DNA from: a virus
Direction: 5' to 3' (one strand)
DNA length: 39,467 nt
Virus record (IMG/VR): IMGVR_UViG_3300045051_000991
Location: 1 to 39,467 of that record
The position numbers were made by a program, and so were the translations under genes. Below the pieces are notes generated by a model. It did not search any database. It saw only the letters and a list, made by a program, of their open reading frames with translations, and had not been told where the DNA came from. This document shows positions 5,248 through 39,467 of this stretch, in pieces (the stretch's first letter is position 1; each line of letters begins with the position of its first letter).

Positions 5248-5982
5248 TCAGAACACCAGCGCGAGCCGCGCCTCAGCGAAGCTCTGGTTGGAATCGGTTG
5301 AGCCGACGTTGTGCCCGTAGCGGCCATCGATCTTGATGTGGTCCGGGAACAGGTAGGGCACGGTGTAGCCGACCTTGAGATCCCAGTACGGCACCGCGCG
5401 CTCGGTCCCCGGGTTCTTCTCCCAGCGGTAGCCCACGCCTGGCGAGAGCGAGATGCGCTGGAACGAGAGGGCACCGTAGTGCTCGACCTCGGCCGCGCCC
5501 GCCGGCTGCGCGAGCGAGAACGCAAGCATTGAGGTGACGAGCAGTGCTGCACCCTTGGCCTTGAGCAGCCCCGCGGGCGTGGACTTTCCGCCCCAGCCCG
5601 TGATCAGGGAGTTGAGCCCGGTCCACAGCACGCCGGCACCGAGACCCACGACCGGGTTGTGGAAGAGGCCGCTGGCGAACAGTGCCGCAAGGATCGGCAG
5701 GATGAAGGGCTTCCAGCGCGCCCAGTGGGGGGCGAGCAGGGCCGCGAGCGCCGGGCTCAGGCGCAGAAGGATCATCCCGACCCACTCGGTCGTGAACACC
5801 ATGACGAGCACCGGCGAGCCCAGCACCAACGCTGAGAGCCACTGGACGAAGCCGTCCGGGATCCCGGGCATGACGGTGCTGAGGAAATCGTGAACGACCC
5901 TGGTCACGGCCACCGTGTCCGCGGCCGTGGCGGCCGCGAGCAGGACGGCGAACAGCGCGGCGAACAGCGTGAGGAAGAACAT
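5248..5982 (-). CDS. Polytopic membrane protein with beta-barrel-like C-terminus (possible lysis protein)
   Basis: The 244-aa product starts at ATG 5982 behind AAGGAGGT. Residues 1-21 are a hydrophobic helix or signal, and further hydrophobic segments lie near 45-66, 67-85, 91-106 and 108-122, giving a holin-like membrane domain. Residues 139-163 look like a second, internal signal peptide (basic KAK, hydrophobic core, PAGAAE). The last ~80 residues alternate polar and aromatic residues (LSPGVGYRWEKN, YWDLKVGYTVPYLF, HIKIDGRYGH) and end in LALVF, the C-terminal Phe signature of outer-membrane beta-barrels. Two of the three genes upstream encode lysozyme and a spanin-like protein, so a lysis role is inferred. 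A frameshift-free fusion of two genes is another reading. Confidence 0.55.
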   Translation of the reverse strand: MFFLTLFAALFAVLLAAATAADTVAVTRVVHDFLSTVMPGIPDGFVQWLSALVLGSPVLVMVFTTEWVGMILLRLSPALAALLAPHWARWKPFILPILAALFASGLFHNPVVGLGAGVLWTGLNSLITGWGGKSTPAGLLKAKGAALLVTSMLAFSLAQPAGAAEVEHYGALSFQRISLSPGVGYRWEKNPGTERAVPYWDLKVGYTVPYLFPDHIKIDGRYGHNVGSTDSNQSFAEARLALVF

Positions 5983-6028
5983 CCGCTACCTCCTTGAACC
6001 CCCGGCCGTCATGGCGCGGGGAGCTGGG

Positions 6029-6358
6029 TTAGTAAGGGGAAAGCGGCCCGCTGACGGTCCGCATCCGGCGCAGCTGCATCCGAGCCGCCGCCCGTTCGTC
6101 GGGGTCGCCGACCAACATCAGGACAACGTTCTCAGTCACGGTGTTCTGCCTGGTCTGGGCGGCGACCACGGTGCGAATCACGCGCGCGAGCGACGTGTCG
6201 GCCTCGATCCTGCGCTCCTCGGCCGCGATGATCTCGGACCGCATGCGCCAGGGAGAGATCGGAGAGAGGGCCCCCCACGCCGAGACGACGAGGGCCATGA
6301 GAGCGGCGATAGACACGATTGCCTCCCGCCACTCCTTCCAGATCTCGCCCGGGATCAC
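6029..6358 (-). CDS. Single-pass membrane protein, holin or inner-membrane spanin candidate
   Basis: A 109-aa protein from GTG 6358, joined to the lysozyme gene by GTGA. After a short N-terminus (MIPGEIWKEWREA) it has one hydrophobic helix, about residues 13-33 (IVSIAALMALVVSAWGAL), then a long charged, helical region (SEIIAAEERRIEADTSLARVIRTV...). An N-terminal anchor plus periplasmic coiled coil directly after an endolysin is the layout of inner-membrane spanins (Rz type); a pinholin-like role is the alternative. No partner o-spanin lipoprotein with a lipobox is seen nearby. Confidence 0.55.
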   Translation of the reverse strand: MIPGEIWKEWREAIVSIAALMALVVSAWGALSPISPWRMRSEIIAAEERRIEADTSLARVIRTVVAAQTRQNTVTENVVLMLVGDPDERAAARMQLRRMRTVSGPLSPY

Positions 6359-6873
6359 GCGGGCCTCCCACCGACGAAGAAGCCGACGCGACGGATCCAG
6401 CCCGCGACGTACTTCACCAGCGCGTGCTTCTGGGCCACGAGATCCGCGTAGGCGATCATCCGCGTCTCGCAGAGGCGGTAGTAGACGGTCGCCGCCGGGG
6501 TCGAGCGGAGCCGGGCCAAGGTGAGTGGCCCGATGACGCCGTCAACAGCGGTCCCGAGGATGGCCTGGAGCCAGCGGATCGTGCGCTCGCGGCCGTTGTT
6601 GACCCCTGAGTCGACGAGGAGCCAGCGGAGGTAGTCGTCGGCGACGTCAGCGAAACCGGGCCTGAAGATGTACCAGTGTTCATAGATCTGGCAGGCCTCC
6701 TCCTGGTCGAGATCCTTCACATCCCGGCTGGCCCAGCCGGCCTCGGCCCGCCACTCGTCGTAGGTTTTCTGCGTGATCCCGAAGTTGGTCGGGGGATCCC
6801 CGGTCTCTGGATCGCCCGCCGTGTAGCCGCCCTCGCGCTGCAGCAGATCCTGGACGATCTCGTTGTTCGTCAT
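6355..6873 (-). CDS. Endolysin, GH108-type N-acetylmuramidase
   Basis: The 172-aa protein starts at ATG 6873, overlapping the previous stop as ATGA. The N-terminus has the GH108 signature: Glu14 in LLQREGGYTAGD (general acid), then DPPTNFGIT at about 27-35, the region that shapes the active site in this family. From about residue 110 there is a peptidoglycan-binding-3-like module (GTAVDGVIGPLTLARL). The length of 170-180 aa is normal for the family. It has no signal peptide and so would need a holin to reach the wall. It should cut the glycan strands at the end of infection. Confidence 0.88.
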   Translation of the reverse strand: MTNNEIVQDLLQREGGYTAGDPETGDPPTNFGITQKTYDEWRAEAGWASRDVKDLDQEEACQIYEHWYIFRPGFADVADDYLRWLLVDSGVNNGRERTIRWLQAILGTAVDGVIGPLTLARLRSTPAATVYYRLCETRMIAYADLVAQKHALVKYVAGWIRRVGFFVGGRPA

Positions 6874-7841
6874 GGCGCCCTGTAGTAGACGCGGTGGGTC
6901 GGGTACCAAAACGCCGCGTTGATCGACGCACCGGCGTTGCTGCCCGATTGCGCGAAGCACGAGAGGCCGGTACCGCCGCCGCCCGCGGCCGGGAAGTAGC
7001 TTGCGTTGGTGATCCGTGCCCCCTCGATTCCGTTGATGCAGAACGCTGCGTACTTGGCGATCGGGTTGTACACGATGCGACAACGGAACATTCGGTTGGC
7101 TACGGGCGGGTCTACCCCCGTTAGCACGACCGGTGGGCAACTCGCGCCAGTACCATTCAGGTAGGCGCTCCAGCGGGGCGTCCCTTGGAAGTTATCGGCG
7201 TAGAGGATGCACAGATTGGCCGTGGTTGCCGAGATGTTGGTCACGCTGGCAAAGCCGAGCCCGAATCCGGCTTTGGTGTTGGCGCTGGGCGCGGTCGTCA
7301 TGCCCGTGCCGCCAGGGCTGCTGCTCACATAGTCAAATGCGATGATGCACTCCAAGATGTTTAGGCGGCTCCAAGTGCCAACAAGGGTCTGGACGGTGCT
7401 CGCTGCGTCCTCCGTAGTGCCGGTGGCCGCGAACGGGTCGCCCAGCGCCGTGCCGTCACTTTGCTGGACCTCGCCAACCCATATGGTTTTGCCAGCGCCG
7501 GGATGCCATCCGGTCGTATCGGTGGGCCAGGCGAAGCCCACGGTGTTCGCGTCGTTGTTGATGCCCCACCCGGTGTTGCCTCCGCCGTCACACGTCATCC
7601 CGCCAGCTCGGTAGGCGACAGACGGATAGGACGTCATCTGGTTGAGGGTGGAGTTGAAACTCGTGAACATCTCCCAAACGTGAATCTCGTAGTACTCGCG
7701 GTGGTCGAACAGGACGGAGTCGGAGAAGTTCGCGTCCGCGGGCTTGGGGCGGTCGAACAGCTGCGCCACGTTGAGCGTGGTGAGCACCAGCAGCGCGATC
7801 GGGATCATCACGCCACGCGCGCGGGTCAGGAAGTCACGCAT
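6870..7841 (-). CDS. Membrane-anchored or signal-bearing beta-rich protein, possible receptor-binding or lectin-like
   Basis: I start at ATG 7841, where AGGAGG lies seven bases upstream, rather than the in-frame codon at 7877. The 323-aa product has a basic N-terminus, then a hydrophobic segment at about residues 11-27 (GVMIPIALLVLTTLNVAQLF), as in an uncleaved signal anchor. The remainder is rich in Gly, Thr, Asn and aromatic residues with beta-strand periodicity, including FRCRIVYNPIAKYAAFCING, which looks like the back strands of a jelly-roll/LamG-like fold. Five or more cysteines suggest disulfides in an oxidising compartment. It sits between the virion proteins and lysozyme, where tail fibres are often encoded. 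Confidence 0.5.
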   Translation of the reverse strand: MRDFLTRARGVMIPIALLVLTTLNVAQLFDRPKPADANFSDSVLFDHREYYEIHVWEMFTSFNSTLNQMTSYPSVAYRAGGMTCDGGGNTGWGINNDANTVGFAWPTDTTGWHPGAGKTIWVGEVQQSDGTALGDPFAATGTTEDAASTVQTLVGTWSRLNILECIIAFDYVSSSPGGTGMTTAPSANTKAGFGLGFASVTNISATTANLCILYADNFQGTPRWSAYLNGTGASCPPVVLTGVDPPVANRMFRCRIVYNPIAKYAAFCINGIEGARITNASYFPAAGGGGTGLSCFAQSGSNAGASINAAFWYPTHRVYYRAP

Positions 7842-7851
7842 CGGGAGCCTC

Positions 7852-8526
7852 CTAGCGGTAGAGCCCGACCCAGCCACGCAGGCGGATCTTCTTCGTGACG
7901 TCGGTCGAGATGTAGTTGAGGACCCGCACCCGGGCCTGGGCCCGGGTGCAGTGGCACTCGGTCACGCCGTACTCGCGGGCGAAGTCGACCTGGAATCCAC
8001 GGATCCCGAAGAAGCGATTCGACGGCGCTCCCTGGGCCGCGGCCGCGCTCAGCCCTCGCCAAGGATCGACCGTGACCAAGATCTCCCCGGGCCAGAGGCC
8101 GGGCCCGCTGCCGGGCGGCGGCTCGGCGGCCTGCGTGAAGCCGGCGCTCCCGGCCACGGGCGTGATCGCGCTGCTGAGCGAGTCGGGGACCGCCTTGGTG
8201 CTGTCGGTCGCGACCGGCCAGCACTTGAGCGCGATCGCGAGCCTGACCTTGCTCGTGCTGTCGGAGACCGAGGGCGGCGTCAGGAGTCCGTAGAAGACCG
8301 CCTTCGTGAAGTTCGACATCGTGAAGACGACGGTCGACTCGGCCGTGAACCGCATGAACGCTGGCGAGCCCTGCTGCGCCGCCGTGAGCGCGTCCTGGGC
8401 CGTGATCGTGTCGTTGATCGCGGGGCTCGTGATCGTCCCCACGAACTTCGAGAGGACGGTCGTCTGGGCCGCCGCAACGCCTGAGAGCGCGAGCAGGAGC
8501 GCGAGCGCCGTGAACAGTCTCTTCAT
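7852..8526 (-). CDS. Secreted hypothetical protein
   Basis: The 224-aa product starts at ATG 8526 behind GGGGAGG. Residues 1-20 are a classical Sec signal peptide (MKRLFTALALLLALSGVAAA, cleavage before QT). The mature part is Ser/Thr/Ala-rich and predicted beta, with a CHC pair near residue 194 and one more Cys near 102. It ends in an amphipathic strand (KKIRLRGWVGLYR). Virion proteins seldom carry Sec signals, so this may act in the periplasm or outer surface, for example blocking superinfection. The protein at 26443-27045 has a very similar leader and similar size. Confidence 0.6.
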   Translation of the reverse strand: MKRLFTALALLLALSGVAAAQTTVLSKFVGTITSPAINDTITAQDALTAAQQGSPAFMRFTAESTVVFTMSNFTKAVFYGLLTPPSVSDSTSKVRLAIALKCWPVATDSTKAVPDSLSSAITPVAGSAGFTQAAEPPPGSGPGLWPGEILVTVDPWRGLSAAAAQGAPSNRFFGIRGFQVDFAREYGVTECHCTRAQARVRVLNYISTDVTKKIRLRGWVGLYR

Positions 8527-13200: not shown

Positions 13201-13616
13201 ATGCCCCCCTGCTGGTCAGCGTAGAGCAGCTGCGCGATCGTGGGGTTCATGGCCGGAGGTGGCAGGTAGGACCGCGGCTTGAGGGCGGGCGGGGGCGGGT
13301 TGAGCCCGCGGGCCGCGAGCTGGCTCGTGAGCTGGCCGCCGACCTGCTTGTAGGCGCTCTGGGCCGTCGGCCCGAGCCACCAGGGCACAGCCTCGGCCGC
13401 CGTAGCCGCCGTGGCACCAGCTCCAGCCACGCCAGCTCCAGCAGCACCGGCAGCACCGGCAGCACCGGCCCCCGCACCGGCCGCCGGCGCTGCGGCGGCA
13501 CCACCGCCGCCAGCGAGTGCTCCCAGGGCAGCCCCGCCGGTCGCGGCGACGGCCGCGCCGCCTCCGACGATCAGAAGGGTCTTCGCCCAGGGCGAGAGCT
13601 TCGACCACCACGACAT
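13197..13616 (-). CDS. Gly/Ala-rich membrane-active virion protein candidate
   Basis: A 139-aa protein from ATG 13616 with AGGAGGG upstream. After MSWWSKLSPWAKTLL it runs into an unbroken Gly/Ala region (about residues 17-70) with glycine-zipper spacing, then WWLGPTAQSAYKQVG and a Pro-rich end. Such sequences insert in membranes. Podovirus small ejection proteins (T7 gp14 type) precede the larger ejection proteins in the same way, so a pore or channel role is inferred. Part of the Ala/Gly region is encoded by a 9-bp tandem repeat (13442-13468). Confidence 0.5.
   Translation of the reverse strand: MSWWSKLSPWAKTLLIVGGGAAVAATGGAALGALAGGGGAAAAPAAGAGAGAAGAAGAAGAGVAGAGATAATAAEAVPWWLGPTAQSAYKQVGGQLTSQLAARGLNPPPPALKPRSYLPPPAMNPTIAQLLYADQQGGM
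13442..13468. repeat. Tandem 9-bp repeat, three copies
   Basis: The unit CAGCACCGG occurs three times in a row and then continues imperfectly. It lies in frame inside the Gly/Ala-rich gene and encodes an Ala-Gly-Ala pattern. It can change in copy number by slippage without shifting the frame. Confidence 0.8.
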
Positions 13617-13625
13617 CTCGCCCTC

Positions 13626-14342
13626 CTAGCGATAGATCAGTTCCTTCGGCTTGAGGTTGTACCCGTAGGCCCAGTTCGCATACTGCTGGTACATCTGGTC
13701 GAGCCGCTGCTGGTTCATGAGCGCGCTGTCGGTGTTGGCCTTCATGAGGCCCTGCGACATGTCCCCCTGGCGACCGAGCTGGCTCGAGAGCCGCAAGACC
13801 GAGGCCTGGGTCGGATCGAGGCCGCTCCCGCTGAAGGCGAGGTCGGCACCGCGGTTCTGGTTGAAGTAGTCGGCCTCCGCGTTCGCCCGCAGCATCTCGC
13901 GCATCGCCGGCGAGCCTGTGGGATCGAGCATGCCGTAGTCCTTCATCGTGTTCCTGAGCGAGCCGCCGAAGTCGTACGCGTTGGGGGCCTGGGCCCCGGG
14001 CGGTCCGAACTGGGGCGGCGGCATGTAGCCACCGTACTGCGGCTGCGGGAGCGCCGGTGGGGGCGGGGGCTGATAGCCCGGCCACGCCTGACCCTGGGAG
14101 GCCCGGGGCTTGATGATCGGAGGAGGGCCCGTCATCCGCTTGCGACCCCAACCGGCGGGCTGGCCCCATCCCAGCGGTCGCGGGGTAGTGTAGCCGAGAC
14201 CGAAGACCGAGGCGCCGCCAGAACCACCACCGATACCACCGCCGCCACCGTAGCCGCCGCGGCCGCCGCCGCCGGGGCCAGCTGATCCGCCGGGGTTGGC
14301 CTTGTACTCGGGCCACTCGCCGTAGGTGTCGAACATCCCCAT
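13626..14342 (-). CDS. Gly/Pro-rich structural protein candidate
   Basis: The 238-aa protein starts at ATG 14342 (GGGAGG upstream). Residues 17-45 are nearly pure Gly with Ser and Ala, then come Pro/Tyr/Gln-rich segments (QPPPPPALPQPQYGGYMPP). The C-terminal ~110 residues are helical and charged, with several Met and Asn (ADYFNQNRGADLAFSGSG, NQQRLDQMYQQYANWAYG). A disordered Gly-rich arm with a folded helical end suits a virion linker or internal protein. It lies directly after the 998-aa tail-type gene. No family is recognised. Confidence 0.5.
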   Translation of the reverse strand: MGMFDTYGEWPEYKANPGGSAGPGGGGRGGYGGGGGIGGGSGGASVFGLGYTTPRPLGWGQPAGWGRKRMTGPPPIIKPRASQGQAWPGYQPPPPPALPQPQYGGYMPPPQFGPPGAQAPNAYDFGGSLRNTMKDYGMLDPTGSPAMREMLRANAEADYFNQNRGADLAFSGSGLDPTQASVLRLSSQLGRQGDMSQGLMKANTDSALMNQQRLDQMYQQYANWAYGYNLKPKELIYR

Positions 14343-14354
14343 GGCCCGCCTCCC

Positions 14355-17351
14355 TCAGATCAGGTGAGTGTCGATGTAGAGCTCGAGGCCCCAGATCAGG
14401 TGCCTGCCCGTGCCGCTCGAGCTCTCGTAGCGCCACTCGATCGCGTCACGCGGTGACTGGGCCTCCTGCGGGACCCTGATCTCCCGCCGCCCGTAAGCAT
14501 CGCCTCCCGTCGACGGCACGGTCAAGGTATCCGACCCGCTGCGGTTCTGATCCCTGTACATCCTGATCGTGGCGGTGCCGGCCGAGGGCTTCGCGTACTT
14601 GAGCCAGCCATAGCGCGAGCTCTTCTTCTCGGGCGCGTCGGCACGATCGGTCGCGAAGTTGAGGTAGAGGTTGTAGGCCGCGCCGTTGTCGTCGTGGGTC
14701 CCGGCCTTGTTGAACTCGTCCATCCGGCCGGTCCCGGTCGTGTTCGCCCCGTCACCGGCCTCGTAGGCCCCGTAGAGATGGATCCCAGTCGAGCTCACGA
14801 CCTCGCCCATGACCGAGATCCTGAGATCGAAGGGCGAGCTCCAGCCGAACGGAATGATCTGGCCGTCCTGGGTCTCGCCCGCGTAGACCTGCCGGATCCC
14901 GAGGCGGTCCTTCCCGCCCGCGAATCGGTAGGCGACCATGCGGTCCGGGTAGGTCGAGTTCTGGTCCTTCCTGAAGGTGAGGTAGAGGACGGCCTGGGAG
15001 ACCAGGGCTGAGAAGAAGGCCCCGTCGGTGTCGGCCTCGCAGGCCTTGATGCACTCCCCGACCTCGTAGCTCGAGTCGCCGGTTCCGTAGCCGCCGTCGT
15101 AGACCTTCCCGCTGATGATCACCTCGCGCTCGCCGTCGTTGAACGCGTAGCCCTCGCGCTTCAGGTAGCCGACGAGGCCGTGGGTCTCGACCACGCTCGC
15201 GGGCGCGATGCAGCCGTCGCCCTTCGACTGGAGCTCGAGACGGTAGTCGTCGTCCTCGCCGCTCTTCCCGCCCTTCACGTTCCTGATCACGCCGACCGCG
15301 TTCGAGTAGAGAACGATCGCTCCGGACAGCAGCGTGCCGAGGCCGGTCAGGATCCCGGCCTGCTCCTCTGAGCTGCGGAAGCCGCCGTGGACCCCGGCGT
15401 AGAAGTTGTCCATCGCGATCCGGCCACCGGCGTGGGTTGGGCCACCGCCCGAGAACAGCACGTCGCGCTTGAGCGTGTCCTGGGCCGCGCGGTAGGCGTT
15501 GTTGAAGAAGAGGATCGCGGGGCAGCCGAACCCGAAGTCCCGCATCCCCCCCGGGGTCCCGTCCCCGAAGTCGAACCCGATCCAGATGTCCTCCGAGAGC
15601 GCGCCGGCGACGGCCGCGAGCGAGTTGCCGTCCGCGTCCACCATCGCGATATGCGTCGCGTCCGTGACCGCGCCGACGTAGTAGCCGGTCGCGTTCGGCA
15701 TCTTGGTGCCCTTGATCTTCATCCCGACCAGGACCTGGCTGAAGTCGCCAGCCACTCCGTCGGTCTGGTTGTTCGCTGTGAGCGTGGCGGTCCCGGCCGT
15801 GGCGCAGTTGATCTTGAACTGGGTGAGCTCGAGGTTGTCGAGTGTGGCGAGGTCGTCAGCCCCCGGCACGATCTGGCCCTTCCAGTCCCCGGCCGCGCTC
15901 GCGGGCCGCTGGGCTCCCAGGGTGTCGACCAGGTCCTGAAGCGTGTACCCGCTCGTTGCCGGGACCGTGGCCTCGCCCGTCCCCTCCTCTCGCCAGACCA
16001 CGAGCTTGAGCCTCGGGTTCTGGGTCTGGTCGTGGCGGACCGACGCGGTCGCGATCACGCTCCCGGTCGCGGCCGCGTCCTCGGTCGGCCGCGCGAGCCC
16101 CGAGCCGTTCTTCACCACCCGCTGGGTCAGTAGGACCGCCGCGTTGTGGCGCCGGATGTAGCCCAGGATCACGCGCTGATCGAAGGTCGTCGCGTAGCGG
16201 GCGCAGTAGGGCCAGATGTGGTCATAGCGGATCATGCTCGTGTCGACGCCGAGCGCCAGGTCCGAGCCCGCGGTGTCGCGGTAGGTGGTCTGGGTGTTGT
16301 TCGGGATGATGGCCGTGACCTTGAGCGAGTTGGGATCCGCAACCCCGTTCGTGGCCGCGCTCCCGTCCGCGATCGTGCCGCGGAGCAGCCAGCGCTCGAT
16401 GCAGTCGGGGCCGCCGGTCGGGATCTCGATCCAGTCGATGTACTCGTACTTGTCGGTGTCGGCGTCGCCGGACTTGGTGAGGTTCTCGATGTAGCCCGCG
16501 TAGTTCTGGGCCACGTCCGAGCCGTTCGCGGCCGAGACCGCGACCGACTTCGGTCCCCGGGGGATGAACGGCCGGGTGAAGGACCCGTCCTTGTTCTTGA
16601 ACATCACCGAGATGTAGAACCGGTTCTTCCCTGTCCAGGGGGCCACGATCCCGCCGCCGGTCTTGGCTGGGACCTGAATCTTCGGGACCGCGAGCGGTGG
16701 GATGTGGCCGAGGGGGCGCAGGCGCTCGTTGTTCGAGTCGCTCGTGGTCGTGCTGTCGTTGAAGCACCGGTTCCACTTCTGGGCGCAGCCGCCCGTGAGC
16801 GATCCGAAGAGCAGGTAGTCGCCCACGCCCACGGCCCTGCGCGTCCCGCTCAGGGCGAAGGTCCGCTGGCTCTTCGTCGCGAGCCTGCCCATCCGCTGGG
16901 CATGCTGGGACCAGTAGGGTACGCACTTGAGATCCCATGGGTTCGTCGCGTCGAGGGTGGGGTACTGGGCCGCGAAGGACTTCCCGATCACCTGCCCGGT
17001 GTTGTCGTTCGTGGACCTGAAGTAGAGCTGGGCCGCATGCGTGGTCTCGTTCGTCCACAGCGAGCCCACGACCGGGTAGCCGTCCGCGATCGAGGGCGAG
17101 CGGATCGGCAGGATCTGGCGGCAGCGGCCCGCGATCTTCTTCTCGAGCAGGCCGACCGGGGCCCCCGCGCCACCGGCGTCGAATACGATCGCGGACCCCA
17201 GTCGGCTCTGGAACTTCCCCTCCTGGGAGTCGAACTCGAAGTTGAGCGAGTCGCCGGTGATCTCGTCGGGCGAGACTGCGTGCCGCAGCTGGGCCGAGTT
17301 GTAGCCGGCGAACGGGGCCCCGAAGGCCCGGAGCTGGCGCGCGACCGGCAT
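14355..17351 (-). CDS. Large tail protein, probable tail nozzle / tubular B-like
   Basis: The 998-aa protein starts at ATG 17351, sharing a base with the previous stop (TGATG). Its N-terminus (VSPDEITGDSLNFEFDSQEG, then GKFQSRLGSAIVF) resembles the opening of podovirus tail nozzle proteins, where a short description of residues needed per subunit is followed by a repeated beta domain. The body is beta-rich, with Gly/Asp/Thr turns, aromatic strands and few cysteines, and holds repeated propeller-like pieces. Its place two genes after the coat, behind two ~240-aa adaptor-like proteins, matches T7 gp12 or P22 gp10-type order. A tail fibre or spike is a weaker alternative. Confidence 0.55.
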   Translation of the reverse strand: MPVARQLRAFGAPFAGYNSAQLRHAVSPDEITGDSLNFEFDSQEGKFQSRLGSAIVFDAGGAGAPVGLLEKKIAGRCRQILPIRSPSIADGYPVVGSLWTNETTHAAQLYFRSTNDNTGQVIGKSFAAQYPTLDATNPWDLKCVPYWSQHAQRMGRLATKSQRTFALSGTRRAVGVGDYLLFGSLTGGCAQKWNRCFNDSTTTSDSNNERLRPLGHIPPLAVPKIQVPAKTGGGIVAPWTGKNRFYISVMFKNKDGSFTRPFIPRGPKSVAVSAANGSDVAQNYAGYIENLTKSGDADTDKYEYIDWIEIPTGGPDCIERWLLRGTIADGSAATNGVADPNSLKVTAIIPNNTQTTYRDTAGSDLALGVDTSMIRYDHIWPYCARYATTFDQRVILGYIRRHNAAVLLTQRVVKNGSGLARPTEDAAATGSVIATASVRHDQTQNPRLKLVVWREEGTGEATVPATSGYTLQDLVDTLGAQRPASAAGDWKGQIVPGADDLATLDNLELTQFKINCATAGTATLTANNQTDGVAGDFSQVLVGMKIKGTKMPNATGYYVGAVTDATHIAMVDADGNSLAAVAGALSEDIWIGFDFGDGTPGGMRDFGFGCPAILFFNNAYRAAQDTLKRDVLFSGGGPTHAGGRIAMDNFYAGVHGGFRSSEEQAGILTGLGTLLSGAIVLYSNAVGVIRNVKGGKSGEDDDYRLELQSKGDGCIAPASVVETHGLVGYLKREGYAFNDGEREVIISGKVYDGGYGTGDSSYEVGECIKACEADTDGAFFSALVSQAVLYLTFRKDQNSTYPDRMVAYRFAGGKDRLGIRQVYAGETQDGQIIPFGWSSPFDLRISVMGEVVSSTGIHLYGAYEAGDGANTTGTGRMDEFNKAGTHDDNGAAYNLYLNFATDRADAPEKKSSRYGWLKYAKPSAGTATIRMYRDQNRSGSDTLTVPSTGGDAYGRREIRVPQEAQSPRDAIEWRYESSSGTGRHLIWGLELYIDTHLI

Positions 17352-18070
17352 CAGGTCGGCTGCTCGGGCGCCGTCGTCCTCGGGCGCGAGAGCCGCTCAC
17401 CGAGGCCGATCGCGGCCTGGACATCGTCCGGCAGCTCCATCCCGATCGTCTGGAGTTCATCGATGGCGAGGCCGTTGAGGCGGCCGAGCTCGACCGCGGA
17501 CATCACCGAGACGGTCCTCAGGTCGATCGGCTCGAGGTCGGGCAGGGTGGCGTCCTCAGGGTAGTTCTTCGTGACGTACATCGAGAAGAAGAGGTTGGTC
17601 CCGCCGAGATCCGGGTGCTTGTAGCACGGCCACCAGAAGAGGGTCGGGGCCCCGGCGTCGCCGTCGAGCTTCCGGATCGCGAAGTAGGTCGGCGTGAGCC
17701 CGTTCAGGTCGGGGGTCGTGGCCTGGTCCCTACGGAGTTGGTCGATCTCCCAGGGCTTCAGCCGCTTGAGTTCCTTCGCGACGTTCCCGGTCGTGTTGTT
17801 CGCGGACTCGAGGTAGACGTTGATGACCTCGGAGATGTTGAGGCCCGCGAGGGTGAGCTTCTTGAAGCCCACGTCCGAGGTCACGGCGGTCCCGCTCGTG
17901 ACGAGCTGGTTCCAGGCCAGGAGTGCCGCGCGCCTCCGGCGCATCGAGATGAACTTGATCACGTTCTTCTCGATCAGGCTGTTGAGCTGCGGGTCCGTGG
18001 CCGCAGTCGAGTTGGGATCGCGACCGAGGAGGCGAACCAGCGTCTTCAGCGCGGTGTAGTCGAAGGCCAT
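17351..18070 (-). CDS. Head-tail connector or tail tubular protein candidate
   Basis: A 239-aa protein from ATG 18070 (TAATG overlap with the gene before). It is mainly helical at the N-terminus (DYTALKTLVRLLGRDPNSTA, LIEKNVIKFISMRRRRAALL), followed by a beta-rich part with PTYFAIRKLDGDAGAPTLFW and a C-terminal helical end. The size and the place between coat and large tail gene fit a podovirus adaptor/tail tubular A-type protein. Its neighbour upstream is almost the same length and may form the second ring. There is no clear sequence motif. Confidence 0.5.
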   Translation of the reverse strand: MAFDYTALKTLVRLLGRDPNSTAATDPQLNSLIEKNVIKFISMRRRRAALLAWNQLVTSGTAVTSDVGFKKLTLAGLNISEVINVYLESANNTTGNVAKELKRLKPWEIDQLRRDQATTPDLNGLTPTYFAIRKLDGDAGAPTLFWWPCYKHPDLGGTNLFFSMYVTKNYPEDATLPDLEPIDLRTVSVMSAVELGRLNGLAIDELQTIGMELPDDVQAAIGLGERLSRPRTTAPEQPT

Positions 18071-18783
18071 TAGGCGCTCGCCTCGGTGACGTTGTCGTTG
18101 CGCCTTGAGAGGAGGATCCTCGTGCGCACGGCCTGCTCGAGGCGCTTCGCGTCAGCCCCGAGTTGGTCGACGTAGGGGAGCGCTAGCTTGATCTTCGCGA
18201 GCTGGTCCTCGGGCAGGGACCGGAGGAGGCGCTCGGCCACCCGGAGCTCGAGGACGCGCATCAGCCCCTGGTCGTTGACCCCGAGGGTCTGGGCGCCGGG
18301 GAACGTGATCTCGAGCGGGACGTAGCGGAACCGGACGTTCACCGGGGTGTTGCCCTGGGAGGTCGGAGCAACGTCGATCCAGGTCGCGCCGCTGGTGTCG
18401 AACCGGAGCGTCCAGTAGGTCACGGTCCCCTTCGGCCGGGTCGGGGACGAGGAGTAGTACCAGTCGATCCACTCGCGGGTCCGCCAGATCAGGGGGAAGT
18501 TGTCGGAGTTCCTGATCACGGCCAGGACCTGGCTCCCGGCCGGGAACGCGTTCGGGTCGGTCGCGTTGAAGACGGCGTCGGGGCTCTTCTGCCACTCGCC
18601 GTCCGCGTAGGTCATCGAGCCGGTGTCGTTCGTGCCCAGGACCTTGTCCTCGGCCATCTGCTGGATGCAGAGCTCGACCTGCTCCTTGAGCATGAGCGGA
18701 GAGACCGCAGGATCCCCGCGGTCCGTATCGTTCATGAGATTCCGGATCCGGGTCTCGATCTGCTCGAAGGTCTTGCTGGTCAC
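18070..18783 (-). CDS. Head completion / tail tubular A-like protein candidate
   Basis: I take GTG 18783 as start because it overlaps the upstream stop as GTGA, the pattern used throughout the genome; GTG 18789 would add two residues. The 237-aa product has an N-terminal helical section (TFEQIETRIRNLMNDTDRGD) and a beta-rich middle (AVIRNSDNFPLIWRTREWID, VTYWTLRFDTSGATWIDV), then FRYVPLEITFPGAQTL and a helical end (LMRVLELRVAERLLRSL). This helix-beta-helix arrangement is typical of gp4/gp11-type podovirus connectors. The identification rests on layout and order. Confidence 0.55.
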   Translation of the reverse strand: MTSKTFEQIETRIRNLMNDTDRGDPAVSPLMLKEQVELCIQQMAEDKVLGTNDTGSMTYADGEWQKSPDAVFNATDPNAFPAGSQVLAVIRNSDNFPLIWRTREWIDWYYSSSPTRPKGTVTYWTLRFDTSGATWIDVAPTSQGNTPVNVRFRYVPLEITFPGAQTLGVNDQGLMRVLELRVAERLLRSLPEDQLAKIKLALPYVDQLGADAKRLEQAVRTRILLSRRNDNVTEASA

Positions 18784-19319
18784 GCCCACCGGGCCTCCGC
18801 GATTTCAGCCGCCGTCCTCAGGGGGCGGCGGTCCTCGAGCTCCTCAGTGTCGAGCTCCCAATCGCGACCCTTGGGCCGCTTCCAGCGTCGACCGGCCTTG
18901 TCGGTGAAGTAGAGCGTCCCGCGCTGACCGCGTACGCGCCGGAACCCCTGGAGCTCGCGGGCCTCGACCGAGTGCTCCGGGGTCGCGATGATCCTCCCGT
19001 CAGGTGCCCGCATCGGGACCGACGAGACGAGGCCGTTGCGCCGGCCCGAGCGTTGGATCTCGAGTCGGCGCCTCGGCGTGGTGATCTCCAGCAGCTTCTG
19101 GATGTTCTTCTTGCGGGTCGCGACGTCGGTGACCCCCTTGTTGATGTCGAGGGTCCACCGGCCGTCGGGGCTCTCGGTCAGCTTCTCCTGACCGAAGAGC
19201 GCCACGGCGTCGGCCTTGGTGGGGCCGCTATCCTTGACCCGCTGGAGCTCCTTCGCGCTCTCGATCTTTCCCCGCACCTCGCTTGGCGTGGGGCTTGGCG
19301 CGATCGCCTTTTCGCCCAT
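18780..19319 (-). CDS. Hypothetical structural-region protein
   Basis: The 179-aa basic protein starts at ATG 19319 (GGAG seven bases before). This start puts its first 92 bases inside the preceding gene in another frame. A later GTG near residue 15 would shorten the overlap but has no good ribosome-binding site. The sequence is Arg/Lys/Glu-rich (ITTPRRRLEIQRSGRRNGLV, RRVRGQRGTLYFTDKAGRRW) and probably binds nucleic acid or neighbouring virion parts. Beta-type pieces occur around residues 100-140. No family is recognised. Confidence 0.5.
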   Translation of the reverse strand: MGEKAIAPSPTPSEVRGKIESAKELQRVKDSGPTKADAVALFGQEKLTESPDGRWTLDINKGVTDVATRKKNIQKLLEITTPRRRLEIQRSGRRNGLVSSVPMRAPDGRIIATPEHSVEARELQGFRRVRGQRGTLYFTDKAGRRWKRPKGRDWELDTEELEDRRPLRTAAEIAEARWA

Positions 19320-19956
19320 CCTTCGGCTCCTTGATCTTCTCGACCGTCGCCGCGGTCTCGCTCTTCTCGATCAGTCGCTGGACCTCGGGCGGAATCACCA
19401 CCCGCTGCTCCTCGTCGGCGTCGGTCCGCAGCTCCGGGTCGACCCCCAGGACCTCGAGCTCGCGCTCGCGCTCGATGTGGTCGGTCTCCTCCTCGCGCAG
19501 CTGCGAGAGGTAGGCCTCGTCGAGGAACTCGCTGCCGGGATCCGCCGGCCGCGCGAACTTCTTCACCTCGAAGTCCTTGAGCGCGGTGGTGAACACTGAG
19601 CTCTTGGGCTGGTCCTTGTACTTGTGCTCCGAGAGCTTCATCTTGATGAACTCGCCCTCTTCGGCGATCACCTTGAGGATCCCGTCGAGGCCAGCGATCA
19701 TGGTCTTGGTCTGGTGGACGACGAAGCAGGGCATCACCCGCTCGATCACGCTCACCCGCTCGCCCACCCTGCGGATGATCCGCACCCCCTTGTTCATGGG
19801 GCCGTCCTTCGCGCGCCTGAACTTGCAGGTGCGGTAGAAGCGACAGCCGACGTTGCGCGACTGGTCGGGCTCCGAGCAGGTCCCGTACTGCTCCTTGTTC
19901 AGGCCCAGGTCTTCGATCTCCTGCAGCGTTCCCACAGGCGTGCTGTGGAGAGGCAT
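19228..19956 (-). CDS. Hypothetical protein with N-terminal Cys cluster, after the coat gene
   Basis: A 242-aa product from ATG 19956 with GGGGGA upstream. The N-terminal part has three cysteines (CSEPDQSRNVGCRFYRTCKF, residues 27-46) and another Cys at 76, a possible metal site. The middle has helical and beta parts (MIAGLDGILKVIAEEGEFIK). The C-terminal half is highly charged and helical (REEETDHIERERELEVLGVD), ending in a Lys/Arg/Gly tail. It follows the coat gene after a strong hairpin (19973-20000), a spot often used for head decoration or head-tail proteins. The function is not determined. Confidence 0.5.
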   Translation of the reverse strand: MPLHSTPVGTLQEIEDLGLNKEQYGTCSEPDQSRNVGCRFYRTCKFRRAKDGPMNKGVRIIRRVGERVSVIERVMPCFVVHQTKTMIAGLDGILKVIAEEGEFIKMKLSEHKYKDQPKSSVFTTALKDFEVKKFARPADPGSEFLDEAYLSQLREEETDHIERERELEVLGVDPELRTDADEEQRVVIPPEVQRLIEKSETAATVEKIKEPKDGRKGDRAKPHAKRGAGKDREREGAPAGQG

Positions 19957-19972
19957 CTGTCCCCCAGGCTGA

Positions 19973-20000
19973 GACCCCGGGCCACGATCGGCCCGGGGTC
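19973..20000 (-). terminator. Strong hairpin after the coat gene
   Basis: GACCCCGGGCC (19973-19983) pairs perfectly with GGCCCGGGGTC (19990-20000) around a six-base loop. It lies 16 bases past the stop of the coat gene and 16 before the next start. No T-run follows, so it may act as a partial terminator or as a 3' stabiliser of the coat mRNA, lowering expression of the genes beyond. Confidence 0.6.
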
Positions 20001-20016
20001 CGCCGGCTGAAGTGGA

Positions 20017-20895
20017 CTACCCGTTGGTGAGGACCGCCATGCAGTACTGGTCCCACACCAGGCCGGCCCCGAGCTCCATCCAGGCGATGATGCGCTCGAC
20101 CAGCTCGTACTCCTGCACGAGGAAGTCGGGCTTCTGGTTGTAGCCGAGGACCATCGCGGGCCGCAGGAAGAGCGGGTTGTACGTCAGCCCGCCCGACTGC
20201 AGCACGTTGCCGGTCTCGTTGAGACGCAGGTTCCACGCGGTCCAGACCCAGCCCTTGACGTTCGGATTCTGGTCGTCGCCGCGGATCTGGGCGTTGGTGA
20301 TCTCCGGGATGTCGAGCAGGAACTGGATCTGCGAGGGGTGGATCACCAGGTCGGCCACCGTCACGCCGACCTTGAACATCTTCTTCGCCCGGGTCGCGAA
20401 ACCGCCCAGGCAGGCGAGCAGCAGGCCCTTGTCCAGGTCCTGCGCCCCACCCAGGTAGTTCGCGAAGCTCGAGGCGAGGGCCGCGACCTCCGCGTCCTGA
20501 CCCTCGGCCAGCGAGGCCGCGAGCTGGGTGCGGAAGCCGTTCCGCGGATTCAGAATCATCCGCGAGAAGACGTTCTTGTTGATCTCGAGGGCGGTGTAGA
20601 CCGTCTTCGGGACCACCGTGGTCTCGGTCTCGTCCTGGCCCTGGTAGGTCAGGCCCGTGCCCACGGCCGCCGTGCCGGTCCCATCGGCCAGCGTGGTGCG
20701 ACCGAAGGTTCCGAGCTTACGGATGTGGAGCTTCCCGGCGATCTTCTCCACGCCCTCGTTGCCGTCCTCGACCTTGTCCGCGAGCACGCTCTCTTCGGTG
20801 GTCGTCAGGCCCATCGACGGGCGCCAGACGTCCTCCATGAGCTTTCGCGCATCGGCCATCCCGGATCCGGTGCCGGGAACGTAGGTAGTAGCCAT
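20017..20895 (-). CDS. Major capsid (coat) protein
   Basis: The 292-aa product starts at ATG 20895; AGGAGG lies five bases before, whereas a TTG at 20898 would be too close. Its composition, size, acidic/beta mix and position directly after a scaffold-like gene identify it as the coat. Telltale pieces are a long helix region around LAASLAEGQDAEVAALASSF (spine-helix type of HK97-fold coats), VGVTVADLVIHPSQIQFLLD and an extended beta end (KPDFLVQEYELVERIIAWME). It lacks a protease domain, so no head-maturation protease is visible; the strong ribosome-binding site fits high expression. Confidence 0.8.
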   Translation of the reverse strand: MATTYVPGTGSGMADARKLMEDVWRPSMGLTTTEESVLADKVEDGNEGVEKIAGKLHIRKLGTFGRTTLADGTGTAAVGTGLTYQGQDETETTVVPKTVYTALEINKNVFSRMILNPRNGFRTQLAASLAEGQDAEVAALASSFANYLGGAQDLDKGLLLACLGGFATRAKKMFKVGVTVADLVIHPSQIQFLLDIPEITNAQIRGDDQNPNVKGWVWTAWNLRLNETGNVLQSGGLTYNPLFLRPAMVLGYNQKPDFLVQEYELVERIIAWMELGAGLVWDQYCMAVLTNG

Positions 20896-20930
20896 CAAGT
20901 CCTCCTAACGCGATCGAGGGCGTGCCCAGC

Positions 20931-21740
20931 TCAGTCTGCGAAGGTGAGCCGGCCCTCCTCCAGATCGCGAGTGATCTTCAGTACGTCCTGCCGCTTCTTC
21001 ACGTCGTCGCTCCCGGCCTGGTCGGCCTCCTGAGCGAGCCGCTGAAGCTCGGCCCTGGTGATCGTCTTGTTCCTGATCTGCACCCGGGGAGCGGTGCGGG
21101 TCACGGTGCTCACCGGCCTCGCCGGCTCCTCGGTCCGCTCGGCCGGCGTCCGGATCGGAGGCTTTGCCCCAGGCTTCGGGGTCTCCTTCGTCCTGCTGGC
21201 CTGCGCGGCACGCCGACCCAGAAGGGCCTCGTACGCCGCGTGCGGGTCTCCGAACCTCCCCGTCCCGTAGTAGAGCTGCGCCGTCGCCTCTCGATCGTCG
21301 ACCGGGATGTCGGCGAACATCGCCACGTCCCGCGTCTGGCGGCCCTGCTTGATCGACCGGCGGTGGTTCGCAAGCGAAACCCTCGCCACGGCGTCCCCGC
21401 TCGCGGCCCGGTACTCGAGCTCCTGGACCGACTGCGCGAGCTGCGGGTCATCGTCGGGATCGCCGGCGGGCTGCGCCGGACGGGTCCCAGACTCGATCTG
21501 GGCCCTCAGCCGATCGTTCTCGGCCTTCGTCTCCTCGAGGGTCTGCTTCTCCGCGAGCGACTGCTCGTGTTGACGCCTGAGCGTCGCGTTCTCTTCCTCG
21601 AGCTTCGCGAGTCGCTCCTCGACGGTCGGCTCTTCGTGCTGGTCGTCGTTCCGCTCCTCGGCATCGCCGCTTCCGGGGGCCGCCTCTTCGAGGGGCTCGT
21701 CACCGACTGGCTCTTCCGATGTCCGCGTCGTCGCCGGCAT
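20931..21740 (-). CDS. Scaffolding protein
   Basis: The 269-aa protein is acidic at its N-terminus (EEPVGDEPLEEAAPGSGDAE), has a coiled coil at about residues 42-85 (EERLAKLEEENATLRRQHEQ and on), and a basic helical C-terminus (AELQRLAQEADQAGSDDVKK ... ITRDLEEGRLTF). This acidic coiled-coil protein lying between portal and coat is the standard picture for podovirus and P22-type scaffolds. The C-terminal basic helix is the part that binds coat in that class. The start is ATG 21740 (GGGAG nine bases before). Confidence 0.75.
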   Translation of the reverse strand: MPATTRTSEEPVGDEPLEEAAPGSGDAEERNDDQHEEPTVEERLAKLEEENATLRRQHEQSLAEKQTLEETKAENDRLRAQIESGTRPAQPAGDPDDDPQLAQSVQELEYRAASGDAVARVSLANHRRSIKQGRQTRDVAMFADIPVDDREATAQLYYGTGRFGDPHAAYEALLGRRAAQASRTKETPKPGAKPPIRTPAERTEEPARPVSTVTRTAPRVQIRNKTITRAELQRLAQEADQAGSDDVKKRQDVLKITRDLEEGRLTFAD

Positions 21741-21799
21741 GGTCTGGTTCTCCCTGTGCCCCCTTGTCGCTTACCTGAGCCCCAACGTGCAACAGATCA

Positions 21800-23731
21800 C
21801 TACGCCGCCATCATGCCCTGCGGTGGCATCGGCGGCGGTCCCATGTTCGGTGGCGGCAGCCCGAGCATCGCCTGCGGTGGCATCGTCTGACCGAGCGCCG
21901 GCGGCGGCAGCTGCCCCGGCTGAGGCGGCTGCGCCATCGCGGCCTTCTGGCGGGCCTGCTGCAGCTCCATGATGTACTGGGTCGGGATGTTGAGGATCTT
22001 CGCGGTCACGGCCTGGAGCGCCATGTCGGGAATCTGTGCCCACTGCATGAAGGTCTGGAACTGATCGATGTCCATCGCCTTCAGGCTCGGGCTCGCCGTG
22101 ACCGCGATGTCGAAGTTCGGCATCAGGTCACCACGCACCAGGCCCATGACGTACGAGCCCTGCTGGCCCAGGAGCCGGACCCAGCGGTGCTCGGTCCAGG
22201 TCGCGCGGATCATGTCCCACACGATCCCGAAGAAGATCGACTCCTCGTCGCGGAGGTCTCGGATGTGCTGGTCGGTCGGGATCTCGCCCGTCTCCGTGAG
22301 CTGCCGCACGGTCCCGACCGCGATGTCGCGCGACCGATCGGGCGGGAGCCCGAAGTCGCTCGTCCCGCGGTTGCTGGCGTAGACGCCCTCGATCGCGTTG
22401 AAGTAGACCGCCCACGAGGGCGGGAGGCCCGAGCCCTGGAAGTGCTTCGTGGCGTTGGCCGCCATCGGGTCCGCGAAGTAGGCCACGCGCCCGACCTCGT
22501 CCGAGAAGTCGAAGGCCTCGCCGTTGCGATCGACCAGGCCCTCGGCCGGCGTCATGATCAGGTCGACGTTGAACCGCATCTGGTCGTAGCCGAGCCGGAG
22601 CATCGAGTTCGAGACCACCTGCAGCGACCAGTTGAGCGACGAGTCGCTCTGGCCGTGGTGGTCGCGCGGGGCCTCGTAGGCGATGAACTCGAGGAACGGG
22701 AACGAGCGCAGCGGCTGGGGCCAGCCCTTGTCGTAGAGGATCACCTCCTGATCCTTGGGCTTGATGATCAGGACACCCTTCCCGTACATGCGGTAGAACC
22801 CGATCTTCTCCTCGGTGTCGACCCGGACCATCACGTCGACACCGCAGGCCGGGCAGTCCTCGCCCACGATCGGCACGTCGCCGTTCTCGTCGGGCTGGGC
22901 CTGCTCCTCGTAGCCGCAGGAGGGGCAGCGCATCTTCTGGTCCTCGGCAGGGAGGTCGGTCTGCGACATCGGCTGCTCGACCGTGCGACCGAGCGGATCC
23001 TTCCGGTACCAGGCGAAGAGCAGGGTCACGAGCTCGCGGTTGTCGGGCCCCGAGGAGTCGCCGCCGCCGGCCGTGAGCGCGACGTTGCCGGCGGCGTCCC
23101 CGGTCCCGACCCCGGCGTGCTTCGTGGTCCCGTCCGCGTGGACCTTCTCCGTGTCCTCCCAGCCGTAGTCCTTCATCGCCTCCACGGCCGAGAGCGGGAC
23201 CGTCCGCTCCTCGATCACATAGGGCGTGCGGGCGTCGTGGATGTCGAGGCAGCCGGGCGGGACGTGGAACCTGGTGGGGTCCGTGTTCGAGAACAGGATC
23301 TCATCGATCTCGGGGTCGTACTCGACCTTGGTGATCCAGCTCCTGGCAGCGAACGCCCCGGTGACCATCCGCTTACGGGCCTTCCGGTAGCCGCGCATGC
23401 GATCGAAGAGCACCTGCTCGAGCGCGAACTTCGCGTAGTGGGCGAGGTCGGGGTCCTCCTCGGAGTCGCCGTCGATCGGCCGCATCTCGAGGTAGATCTC
23501 GCTCCCGGCCACGCGGGCGGTCTTGTGCCGCAGGATCTGGTAGAGCTGGAGCCCGCGGGGCTGGATCCGGCGGCGGTCCTTCGTCTCCCCCGTGTCGTTC
23601 ACATAGTGGAGGAGCTTCATCGAGAAGTCGTACTCGAGATCGATCAGGTCGTACCAGGGCTGGTAGTAGGTGGTGGAGTCGTCGTAGTCCTGGTCGACCC
23701 GCTTGCCGATGTCGGTCAGAGGCTCGCTCAC
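21800..23731 (-). CDS. Portal protein with an inserted zinc ribbon
   Basis: The 643-aa product starts at GTG 23731 (GTGA with the previous gene). Features of P22/T7-class portals are seen: an N-terminal helical region (QPWYDLIDLEYDFSMKLLHY), LRHKTARVAGSEIYLEMRPI, a long helical stem region late in the protein (DEESIFFGIVWDMIRATWTE), and a Pro/Met/Gly-rich C-terminal tail that may sit inside the barrel. Unusually, residues 269-296 hold CPSC-x20-CPAC, a four-cysteine zinc ribbon between two strands of the clip/wing part. It forms the DNA channel and head-tail connector. Confidence 0.82.
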   Translation of the reverse strand: MSEPLTDIGKRVDQDYDDSTTYYQPWYDLIDLEYDFSMKLLHYVNDTGETKDRRRIQPRGLQLYQILRHKTARVAGSEIYLEMRPIDGDSEEDPDLAHYAKFALEQVLFDRMRGYRKARKRMVTGAFAARSWITKVEYDPEIDEILFSNTDPTRFHVPPGCLDIHDARTPYVIEERTVPLSAVEAMKDYGWEDTEKVHADGTTKHAGVGTGDAAGNVALTAGGGDSSGPDNRELVTLLFAWYRKDPLGRTVEQPMSQTDLPAEDQKMRCPSCGYEEQAQPDENGDVPIVGEDCPACGVDVMVRVDTEEKIGFYRMYGKGVLIIKPKDQEVILYDKGWPQPLRSFPFLEFIAYEAPRDHHGQSDSSLNWSLQVVSNSMLRLGYDQMRFNVDLIMTPAEGLVDRNGEAFDFSDEVGRVAYFADPMAANATKHFQGSGLPPSWAVYFNAIEGVYASNRGTSDFGLPPDRSRDIAVGTVRQLTETGEIPTDQHIRDLRDEESIFFGIVWDMIRATWTEHRWVRLLGQQGSYVMGLVRGDLMPNFDIAVTASPSLKAMDIDQFQTFMQWAQIPDMALQAVTAKILNIPTQYIMELQQARQKAAMAQPPQPGQLPPPALGQTMPPQAMLGLPPPNMGPPPMPPQGMMAA

Positions 23732-26424: not shown

Positions 26425-26442
26425 GCGGATCTACCGCGGCCG

Positions 26443-27045
26443 CTACTTGCCGAGCGCGTTGAACGCCGAGTAGCCGCTCAGGGTCGCCGTGATCGTGCGG
26501 GCGACCACCACGTTCGGGTCGAACTGGGCGATCACCCTGAAGAAGGGCCACAGGCGCTCGGCCCCGCCGTTGCCGACCGCGTTCGTCTCCGTGACCGCCG
26601 CGGGCACGAGCGTGAGACCGCGGCCGATCCAGCTGGCGATCGACTTCCCGAGCGTGTCGCCCGGCGTCACGTTGTAGCGCGCGAGCACCGTCAGCCAGTG
26701 AGACCCGTCCGCGCTGACCTGATGCGTGGTCGTGAGCGGGGTGTCGCAGCCGCAGGTCCCCGTGTAGGAGAAGATCAGCCGCCCGATGGCCGAGGAGTCG
26801 TAGGCCGCCGGGAGCGGAATCCAGCCCTGGGTCGAGATCGCCTGGGTTGTGCAGGCAACCGCGCCGGCGGGGAGCGAGATCGAGGGGACGAGGACGAAGC
26901 CGCCGTTGGTCCTGGTCTGGCTGATCGTGGTCCGGAACAGGATCTGCTTGTTCGCGTAGTGGGGCGCGACGAGGTTCTGCGCGGCCGCCAGCTGGGCCGT
27001 GGCGAACAGGGCGAGCGCAACGAGCACGAGCGTGAGTCTCTTCAT
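26443..27045 (-). CDS. Secreted hypothetical protein between terminase and virion genes
   Basis: The 200-aa protein starts at ATG 27045 with AAGGAGG seven bases upstream; earlier in-frame codons lack this. Residues 1-22 form a Sec signal peptide (MKRLTLVLVALALFATAQLA, cleavage before QN). The mature part is beta-rich with many Thr and Ser, and a Cys-Gly-Cys pair near residue 100 (TGTCGCDTPL) plus one Cys near 65. The leader resembles that of the protein at 7852-8526. A secreted product placed between terminase and portal is odd for a virion block; decoration, exclusion or periplasmic roles are all possible. Confidence 0.6.
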   Translation of the reverse strand: MKRLTLVLVALALFATAQLAAAQNLVAPHYANKQILFRTTISQTRTNGGFVLVPSISLPAGAVACTTQAISTQGWIPLPAAYDSSAIGRLIFSYTGTCGCDTPLTTTHQVSADGSHWLTVLARYNVTPGDTLGKSIASWIGRGLTLVPAAVTETNAVGNGGAERLWPFFRVIAQFDPNVVVARTITATLSGYSAFNALGK

Positions 27046-27101
27046 CTGGTGCCTCCTTGAGGTAGACGGGTCCCGCACACCGAACCCCAGAGTCGCTTTC
27101 C

Positions 27102-28682: not shown

Positions 28683-28784
28683 GCTCAGCGGGTCCGCGAC
28701 GGCGAGGCCCAGCGTCCTCGAGACCGCGGCCGCGTTTACGAGGTGGGCGTAGGGGTTGATCAGCTTCTGTCGGCCTCAGCCCTT

Positions 28785-39340: not shown

Positions 39341-39467
39341 GGGGCACTCAAGGTCGGTGGGCCGCTTGCGCCCGAGGGCCGGGGCCGGCCGAGCGGTCGC
39401 CAAGGAAGGGCAGAACGATCCGAACAGCGCCGCGCGCCCACCGACTCACTGCTCTGCATGGTGCCCT
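39341..39467. repeat. Terminal direct repeat, right copy (identical to 1-127)
   Basis: This is the second copy of the terminal overlap. Counting it once gives a genome of about 39,340 bp. It includes the upstream end of the first leftward gene's possible TTG start. Confidence 0.95.

Follow-up and report, generated by a model that had tools for sequence, protein, structure and literature searches.

Can a single gene in a phage lysis cassette supply protein for both the inner and the outer membrane? The question is raised by a 244-codon reading frame in a stretch of 39,467 nucleotides (IMG/VR record IMGVR_UViG_3300045051_000991, the whole of which is the window analysed here), for which an initial annotation had proposed a holin-like membrane domain joined, through a second, internal signal-peptide-like segment, to an outer-membrane beta-barrel-like tail in a phage with no o-spanin. 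The window begins and ends with an identical direct repeat of 127 bp (1-127 and 39341-39467), leaving a unit of 39,340 bp. Because a terminal repeat of this length is typical of assembler overlap (presumably reflecting a 127-mer), the window very probably represents a complete phage genome assembled as a circle, and absences from it are therefore meaningful; the record itself may carry no mention of end repeats.

The frame is indeed a single one, and it occupies the minus strand from 5982 to 5248; the annotation had given no strand. Its features are as follows:

5248-5982, minus strand: whole gene, 244 aa, with an ATG start and a TGA stop
5988-5995, minus strand: Shine-Dalgarno (SD) sequence AAGGAGGT, a perfect match spaced 5 nt from the ATG
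5575-5982, minus strand: multi-span, holin-like membrane domain, residues 1-136, from a hydropathy and apparent-insertion-energy scan, with helices in a low-confidence AF2 model
5494-5574, minus strand: internal Sec-signal-peptide-like segment, residues 137-163, from a rule-based pattern, with a predicted cut after A163
5251-5493, minus strand: hydrophilic tail of 81 aa, residues 164-244, predicted to be exported and possibly beta-rich, ending in F; read from the sequence, AF2 being uninformative
5251-5286, minus strand: last 12 residues of the tail, QSFAEARLALVF, an OMP-like C-terminal motif with F at -1 and hydrophobic residues at -3, -5, -7 and -9

GC content by codon position is a good test of coding frame in this genome, which is 68% GC. 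As GC3 lies at 0.86-0.94 in every interval of the ORF and keeps one phase from start to stop, we take the 244-aa gene to be real and continuous. A separate tail gene with a signal peptide of its own would find no in-frame ATG, GTG or TTG to start from between residues 118 and 152; in-frame CTG codons occur at residues 139 and 147 only, neither with a well-placed SD sequence. Where the two halves join, GC by codon position does not point to a sequencing error that changed the frame. A fusion of two genes by sequencing error, which had been named as a possible flaw in the original proposal, is thus unlikely, given the unbroken GC signal and the lack of these start codons at residues 118-152.

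The gene belongs to a minus-strand operon in which the order is 8526-7852, the protein ending at 6870, the endolysin (6873-6355), 6358-6029, the 244-aa gene, 5212-4892 and 4895-4710. The four genes that precede it are:

7852-8526, minus strand: 224-aa protein with a signal peptide, first in operon order
6870-7841, minus strand: protein of 323 to 335 aa with an N-terminal TM or signal-anchor segment (MRDFLTRARGVMIPIALLVLTTLNVAQLF) and its own SD sequence, directly upstream of the endolysin
6355-6873, minus strand: endolysin, 172 aa, Glyco_hydro_108 plus PG_binding_3, with no signal or SAR segment
6029-6358, minus strand: 109-aa protein with a single TM segment at its N-terminus, a charged C-terminal part and a GTG that overlaps the endolysin stop

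The first lysis genes overlap at their start and stop codons (ATGA, GTGA). With MTNNEIVQ at its N-terminus, the endolysin matches a PHROG endolysin family at 2e-32; being a GH108 enzyme with no export signal, it should, to judge from known lysis systems, need a canonical holin. When ORFs with coding-like GC3 were scanned for hydrophobic segments across the genome, the 244-aa gene was the only one likely to encode a multi-span membrane protein, and the same scan showed no small one-TM ORF adjoining the endolysin other than that of the 109-aa protein. The 109-aa protein belongs to no family, its sole match being a sub-threshold one to T4SS_pilin over the TM segment, and is a candidate i-spanin-like protein or single-TM holin partner. 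The ~323-aa protein at 6870-7841 has no family match in Pfam, PHROGs or NCBIfam. We also note that textbook Sec signal peptides are present in two proteins encoded on the minus strand at 7852-8526 (MKRLFTALALLLALSGVAAAQ) and 26443-27045 (MKRLTLVLVALALFATAQLAAAQ), each with a good SD sequence; neither has an NCBIfam match and the two are not similar to each other. Exported phage proteins encoded among structural genes are unusual.

Hydrophobic stretches line the membrane half of the 244-aa protein and continue beyond it: the first (residues 1-21) is strong, those at 45-73 and 93-130 (93-107 and 109-130) are moderate, and that at 137-158 is short. Apparent insertion energies of the segments other than the first are weak, at +2.9 to +5, and the number of spans is uncertain for this reason; of the four to five hydrophobic helices originally described, the multi-span layout can be seen, with segment 1 the only strong one. 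In a model with the N-terminus inside, the positively charged loops at 86-91 (R88/K91) and 131-143 (K133/K141/K143) would both be cytoplasmic, and everything past residue 158 would consequently lie outside the inner membrane. The protein has the TM segments, and the place in a lysis cassette with a GH108 endolysin, that are expected of a canonical holin; it has no match to a holin family, searches of Pfam, PHROGs and NCBIfam returning nothing or noise.

The segment that links the two halves (residues 137-163, AGLLKAKGAALLVTSMLAFSLAQPAGA, followed by AE) consists of a basic n-region, a short apolar core and an AXA site. This is the pattern of a Sec signal peptide of the SPase I type, with KAK (K141, K143) as the n-region, GAALLVTSMLAFSLA as the core and QPAGA as the site, the predicted cut falling before AE. 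The internal signal claimed for this position is therefore real by rule and at most suggestive, a comparable pattern being found somewhere in 6.9% of whole-protein shuffles; the statistics for the signal peptide, and those for the beta motif that follow, are rule-based and post hoc.

The tail had been described as about 80 residues ending in Phe, which agrees with the 81 residues and the terminal F seen here. Its C-terminus, AEARLALVF, follows the outer-membrane protein rule of an aromatic residue at -1 and hydrophobic residues at -3, -5, -7 and -9, as do 0.5% of shuffles in a test that was chosen after the sequence had been viewed. The alternating strands that had been read into the tail do not clearly stand out from chance, hydrophobicity alternating along it not clearly better than in shuffles (p 0.09-0.15), and the strands in the AF2 model are of low confidence: run without an alignment, AF2 gave a pLDDT of 51 for the full-length protein and 40 for the tail, which lends no support to a barrel. 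The smallest known single-chain outer-membrane barrel has eight strands (PMC6340704). A tail of 81 residues could provide about four at most, and we therefore rejected a single-chain barrel, which needs at least eight; an oligomeric barrel alone would remain. Being too short, and having neither a homologue nor a supporting structure prediction, the tail makes a weak case for an outer-membrane barrel.

The absence of a spanin is on firmer ground. Lipoprotein signals following any ATG, GTG, TTG or CTG start were sought in all six frames of the circularised genome, and this lipobox scan yielded a handful of candidates, all of them antisense or badly placed; no credible lipobox ORF was found in the complete genome, and the lysis region held no candidate at all. 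Two control phages gave positive results: in Klebsiella phage RAH2 the scan recovered the o-spanin already annotated, and in Pseudanabaena phage Pam1 one that is embedded and carries no annotation. The earlier observation that an o-spanin is missing thus holds on a complete genome with a control-validated scan, and for this reason we regard the phage as spanin-less. Nor does the 244-aa protein itself have the hallmarks of an o- or u-spanin: it contains no Cys anywhere, tail included, and so lacks the lipoylated Cys of the N-terminal lipobox that marks o- and u-spanins, and its final 81 residues are hydrophilic where a u-spanin has a C-terminal TM segment. Among 677 surveyed phages of Gram-negative hosts, a spanin was not detectable in 91 (about 13%), and some spanin-less phages have no lipoprotein in any frame (PMC6139136). 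Beside related endolysins, o-spanin-like lipobox ORFs could be seen by eye in Agrobacterium phage 7-7-1, Sphingomonas phage Birtae and Escherichia phage SaltyDalty, and none was visible by eye past the endolysin of Methylophilales phage Melnitz-3; the cassettes inspected are 6 of those of 318 phages with related endolysins. The Pam1 lipoprotein ORF (7237-7428, plus strand), which is unannotated, lies inside the coiled-coil ORF Pam1_24, and the two are likely to form a spanin pair of the Rz/Rz1 type.

Searches with the whole protein and with each half found nothing beyond chance in 50,697 phages (tblastn), 72,556 plasmids, IMG/VR (peptide patterns), 84,980 GTDB species, Pfam, PHROGs, NCBIfam or PDB sequences; those of IMG/VR and GTDB require an exact match of 8 residues, and distant relatives may escape them. 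Homologues in which the two halves are separate genes, a check suggested at the outset, did not turn up in the phage, plasmid, IMG/VR or GTDB searches. When the membrane half was sought with a degenerate DNA motif drawn up by hand, a single match came up, which we rejected as it was antisense in an unrelated phage. The phage itself has no recognisable kin: none was found through the terminase, portal or capsid-like ORF in the phage collection or IMG/VR, or through the endolysin in IMG/VR, and the endolysin's relatives in the phage collection are only 30-38% identical. The terminase-, portal- and capsid-like ORFs (13500-28700, minus strand) have no tblastn match in the 50,697 phages, and the portal was recognised solely by profile (PHROG 1216, 3e-7), which suggests that the phage belongs to an unsampled lineage.

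The reading that we tentatively favour, at just short of an even chance, is that the gene's product is a holin-type lysis protein of the inner membrane that carries an exported domain at its C-terminus. Residues 1-136 would sit in the inner membrane with the N-terminus inside and the positive loops in the cytoplasm, and would assemble into a lesion through which the signal-less GH108 endolysin could exit. Residues 137-158 would be either the last membrane segment or a signal peptide, carrying the 81-residue tail across, and the tail would then stay tethered as a periplasmic holin domain or be freed by signal peptidase I after A163. The tail would most likely act in the envelope as lysis proceeds, by timing it, by binding a partner or by contacting the outer membrane or peptidoglycan. 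What we infer is the function as a holin, the topology, the cleavage and whatever role the tail may have: the holin part because of the gene's position (in an operon with the endolysin, with ATGA/GTGA overlaps and a strong SD sequence), the endolysin's need and the lack of any other multi-span gene, and export of the tail because of the charge pattern and the signal-like segment. Counting against a holin, the protein has no homologue or family match, so that position and hydropathy carry the assignment; the adjoining 109-aa one-TM protein could be the holin instead.

Parts of this arrangement have counterparts elsewhere. The bacterial cytochrome b/c1 precursor (fbcH) contains an internal signal peptide at which signal peptidase cleaves it. 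It is likewise a polytopic protein joined to an exported domain via a cleavable internal signal, although its function and sequence are unrelated. The holin T of phage T4 has a periplasmic C-terminal domain, and export of the T4 antiholin RI, a lysis regulator, depends on a cleavable signal peptide whose cleavage site is suboptimal (PMC11413866). Like T, the 244-aa protein would place a C-terminal domain outside the inner membrane after its membrane part, but T has one TM helix and no internal signal-like segment, whereas several spans are present here and the sequences are not related. The u-spanin gp11 of phage T1 also combines in one chain a membrane segment and a Cys-free periplasmic part predicted to be beta-rich (PMC6139136); u-spanins, however, begin with a lipobox and end with a TM segment, whereas the present protein has no lipobox and the reverse order. 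With two-component spanins (of the lambda Rz/Rz1 type, as in Pam1 and RAH2 beside related endolysins) it shares a position after the endolysin, preceded by the one-TM 109-aa protein, but here there is no lipoprotein in any frame. The anchor of the trimeric autotransporter YadA, with about four strands per chain, would fit 81 residues and ends in a Phe-type motif, yet there is no homology, no passenger and no evidence of a barrel.

The T4 proteins also bear on a reading to which we give a modest chance, namely that holin and antiholin (or a timing domain) are united in one chain and the exported tail regulates the membrane domain or the 109-aa protein. The layout is compatible with this, and the periplasmic domain of T and the exported RI are comparable in role, but there is no sequence similarity, the tail has no Cys whereas RI has a disulfide, and nothing observed bears directly on regulation. 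The annotation's own reading, in modified form, would make the protein a two-function lysis polyprotein in which the tail, freed by signal peptidase, would stand in for the o-spanin by binding the outer membrane or by entering it as oligomerised four-stranded units; the 109-aa protein could be its partner in the inner membrane. A complete genome in which a scan that recovers control o-spanins finds no lipobox ORF, a tail preceded by a signal-like segment and ending in an OMP-like motif, a gene in the position where relatives with related endolysins have i-/o-spanins, and the YadA precedent, a 12-stranded barrel to which each chain gives four strands (PMC6340704), all speak for it. We nevertheless consider it unlikely, as 81 residues are too few for a barrel made of one chain, the strand alternation does not clearly exceed that of shuffles, there is no homologue, the AF2 pLDDT is 40-51, and, with ~13% of the surveyed Gram-negative phages lacking a detectable spanin (PMC6139136), the missing spanin does not by itself require a new effector. 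What survives of the dual-membrane proposal is a multi-span cassette protein with an exported, signal-like extension and the missing spanin; the barrel lacks support. Its full form, in which one gene would yield an inner-membrane holin and an unlipidated tail that is cleaved by signal peptidase and disrupts the outer membrane spanin-free, strikes us as highly improbable.

The unbroken GC3 phase, a junction with no well-placed SD sequence or ATG, GTG or TTG, and the failure to find homologues with the halves apart make it rather improbable that a holin gene and a gene for a small exported protein were joined through a very recent mutation or through an error in assembly or sequencing, although the second half would begin with a good N-terminal signal peptide were CTG139 a start codon, and the phage has other proteins with N-terminal signal peptides. 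There is a similarly small chance that the protein acts in the envelope outside lysis, for instance in superinfection exclusion or modification of the host envelope, and lies in the operon by chance. Such a role would fit the presence of three further proteins in this phage, two that carry textbook signal peptides and one whose N-terminus holds a TM segment, and it would fit the possibility that the 109-aa protein is the holin; the gene is, however, directly downstream in the endolysin cassette and is the only multi-span gene where the endolysin needs a holin.

The locus thus presents an unusual gene layout in a spanin-less orphan phage, and the idea of lysis at both the inner and the outer membrane is possible but unproven, with the spanin gap and the C-terminal motif for it, and the length, the lack of a clear strand signal and the lack of relatives against it. 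How spanin-less phages, about one in eight of those surveyed, break the outer membrane is largely open (PMC6139136). To these phages the present one adds a complete, lipobox-free genome together with a candidate, a signal-preceded tail fused to the sole multi-span protein of the lysis cassette. If the tail merely times or anchors the holin, the protein would be a variant of T4-type holins; should the tail instead act on the outer membrane, it would represent a lysis effector of a new kind.
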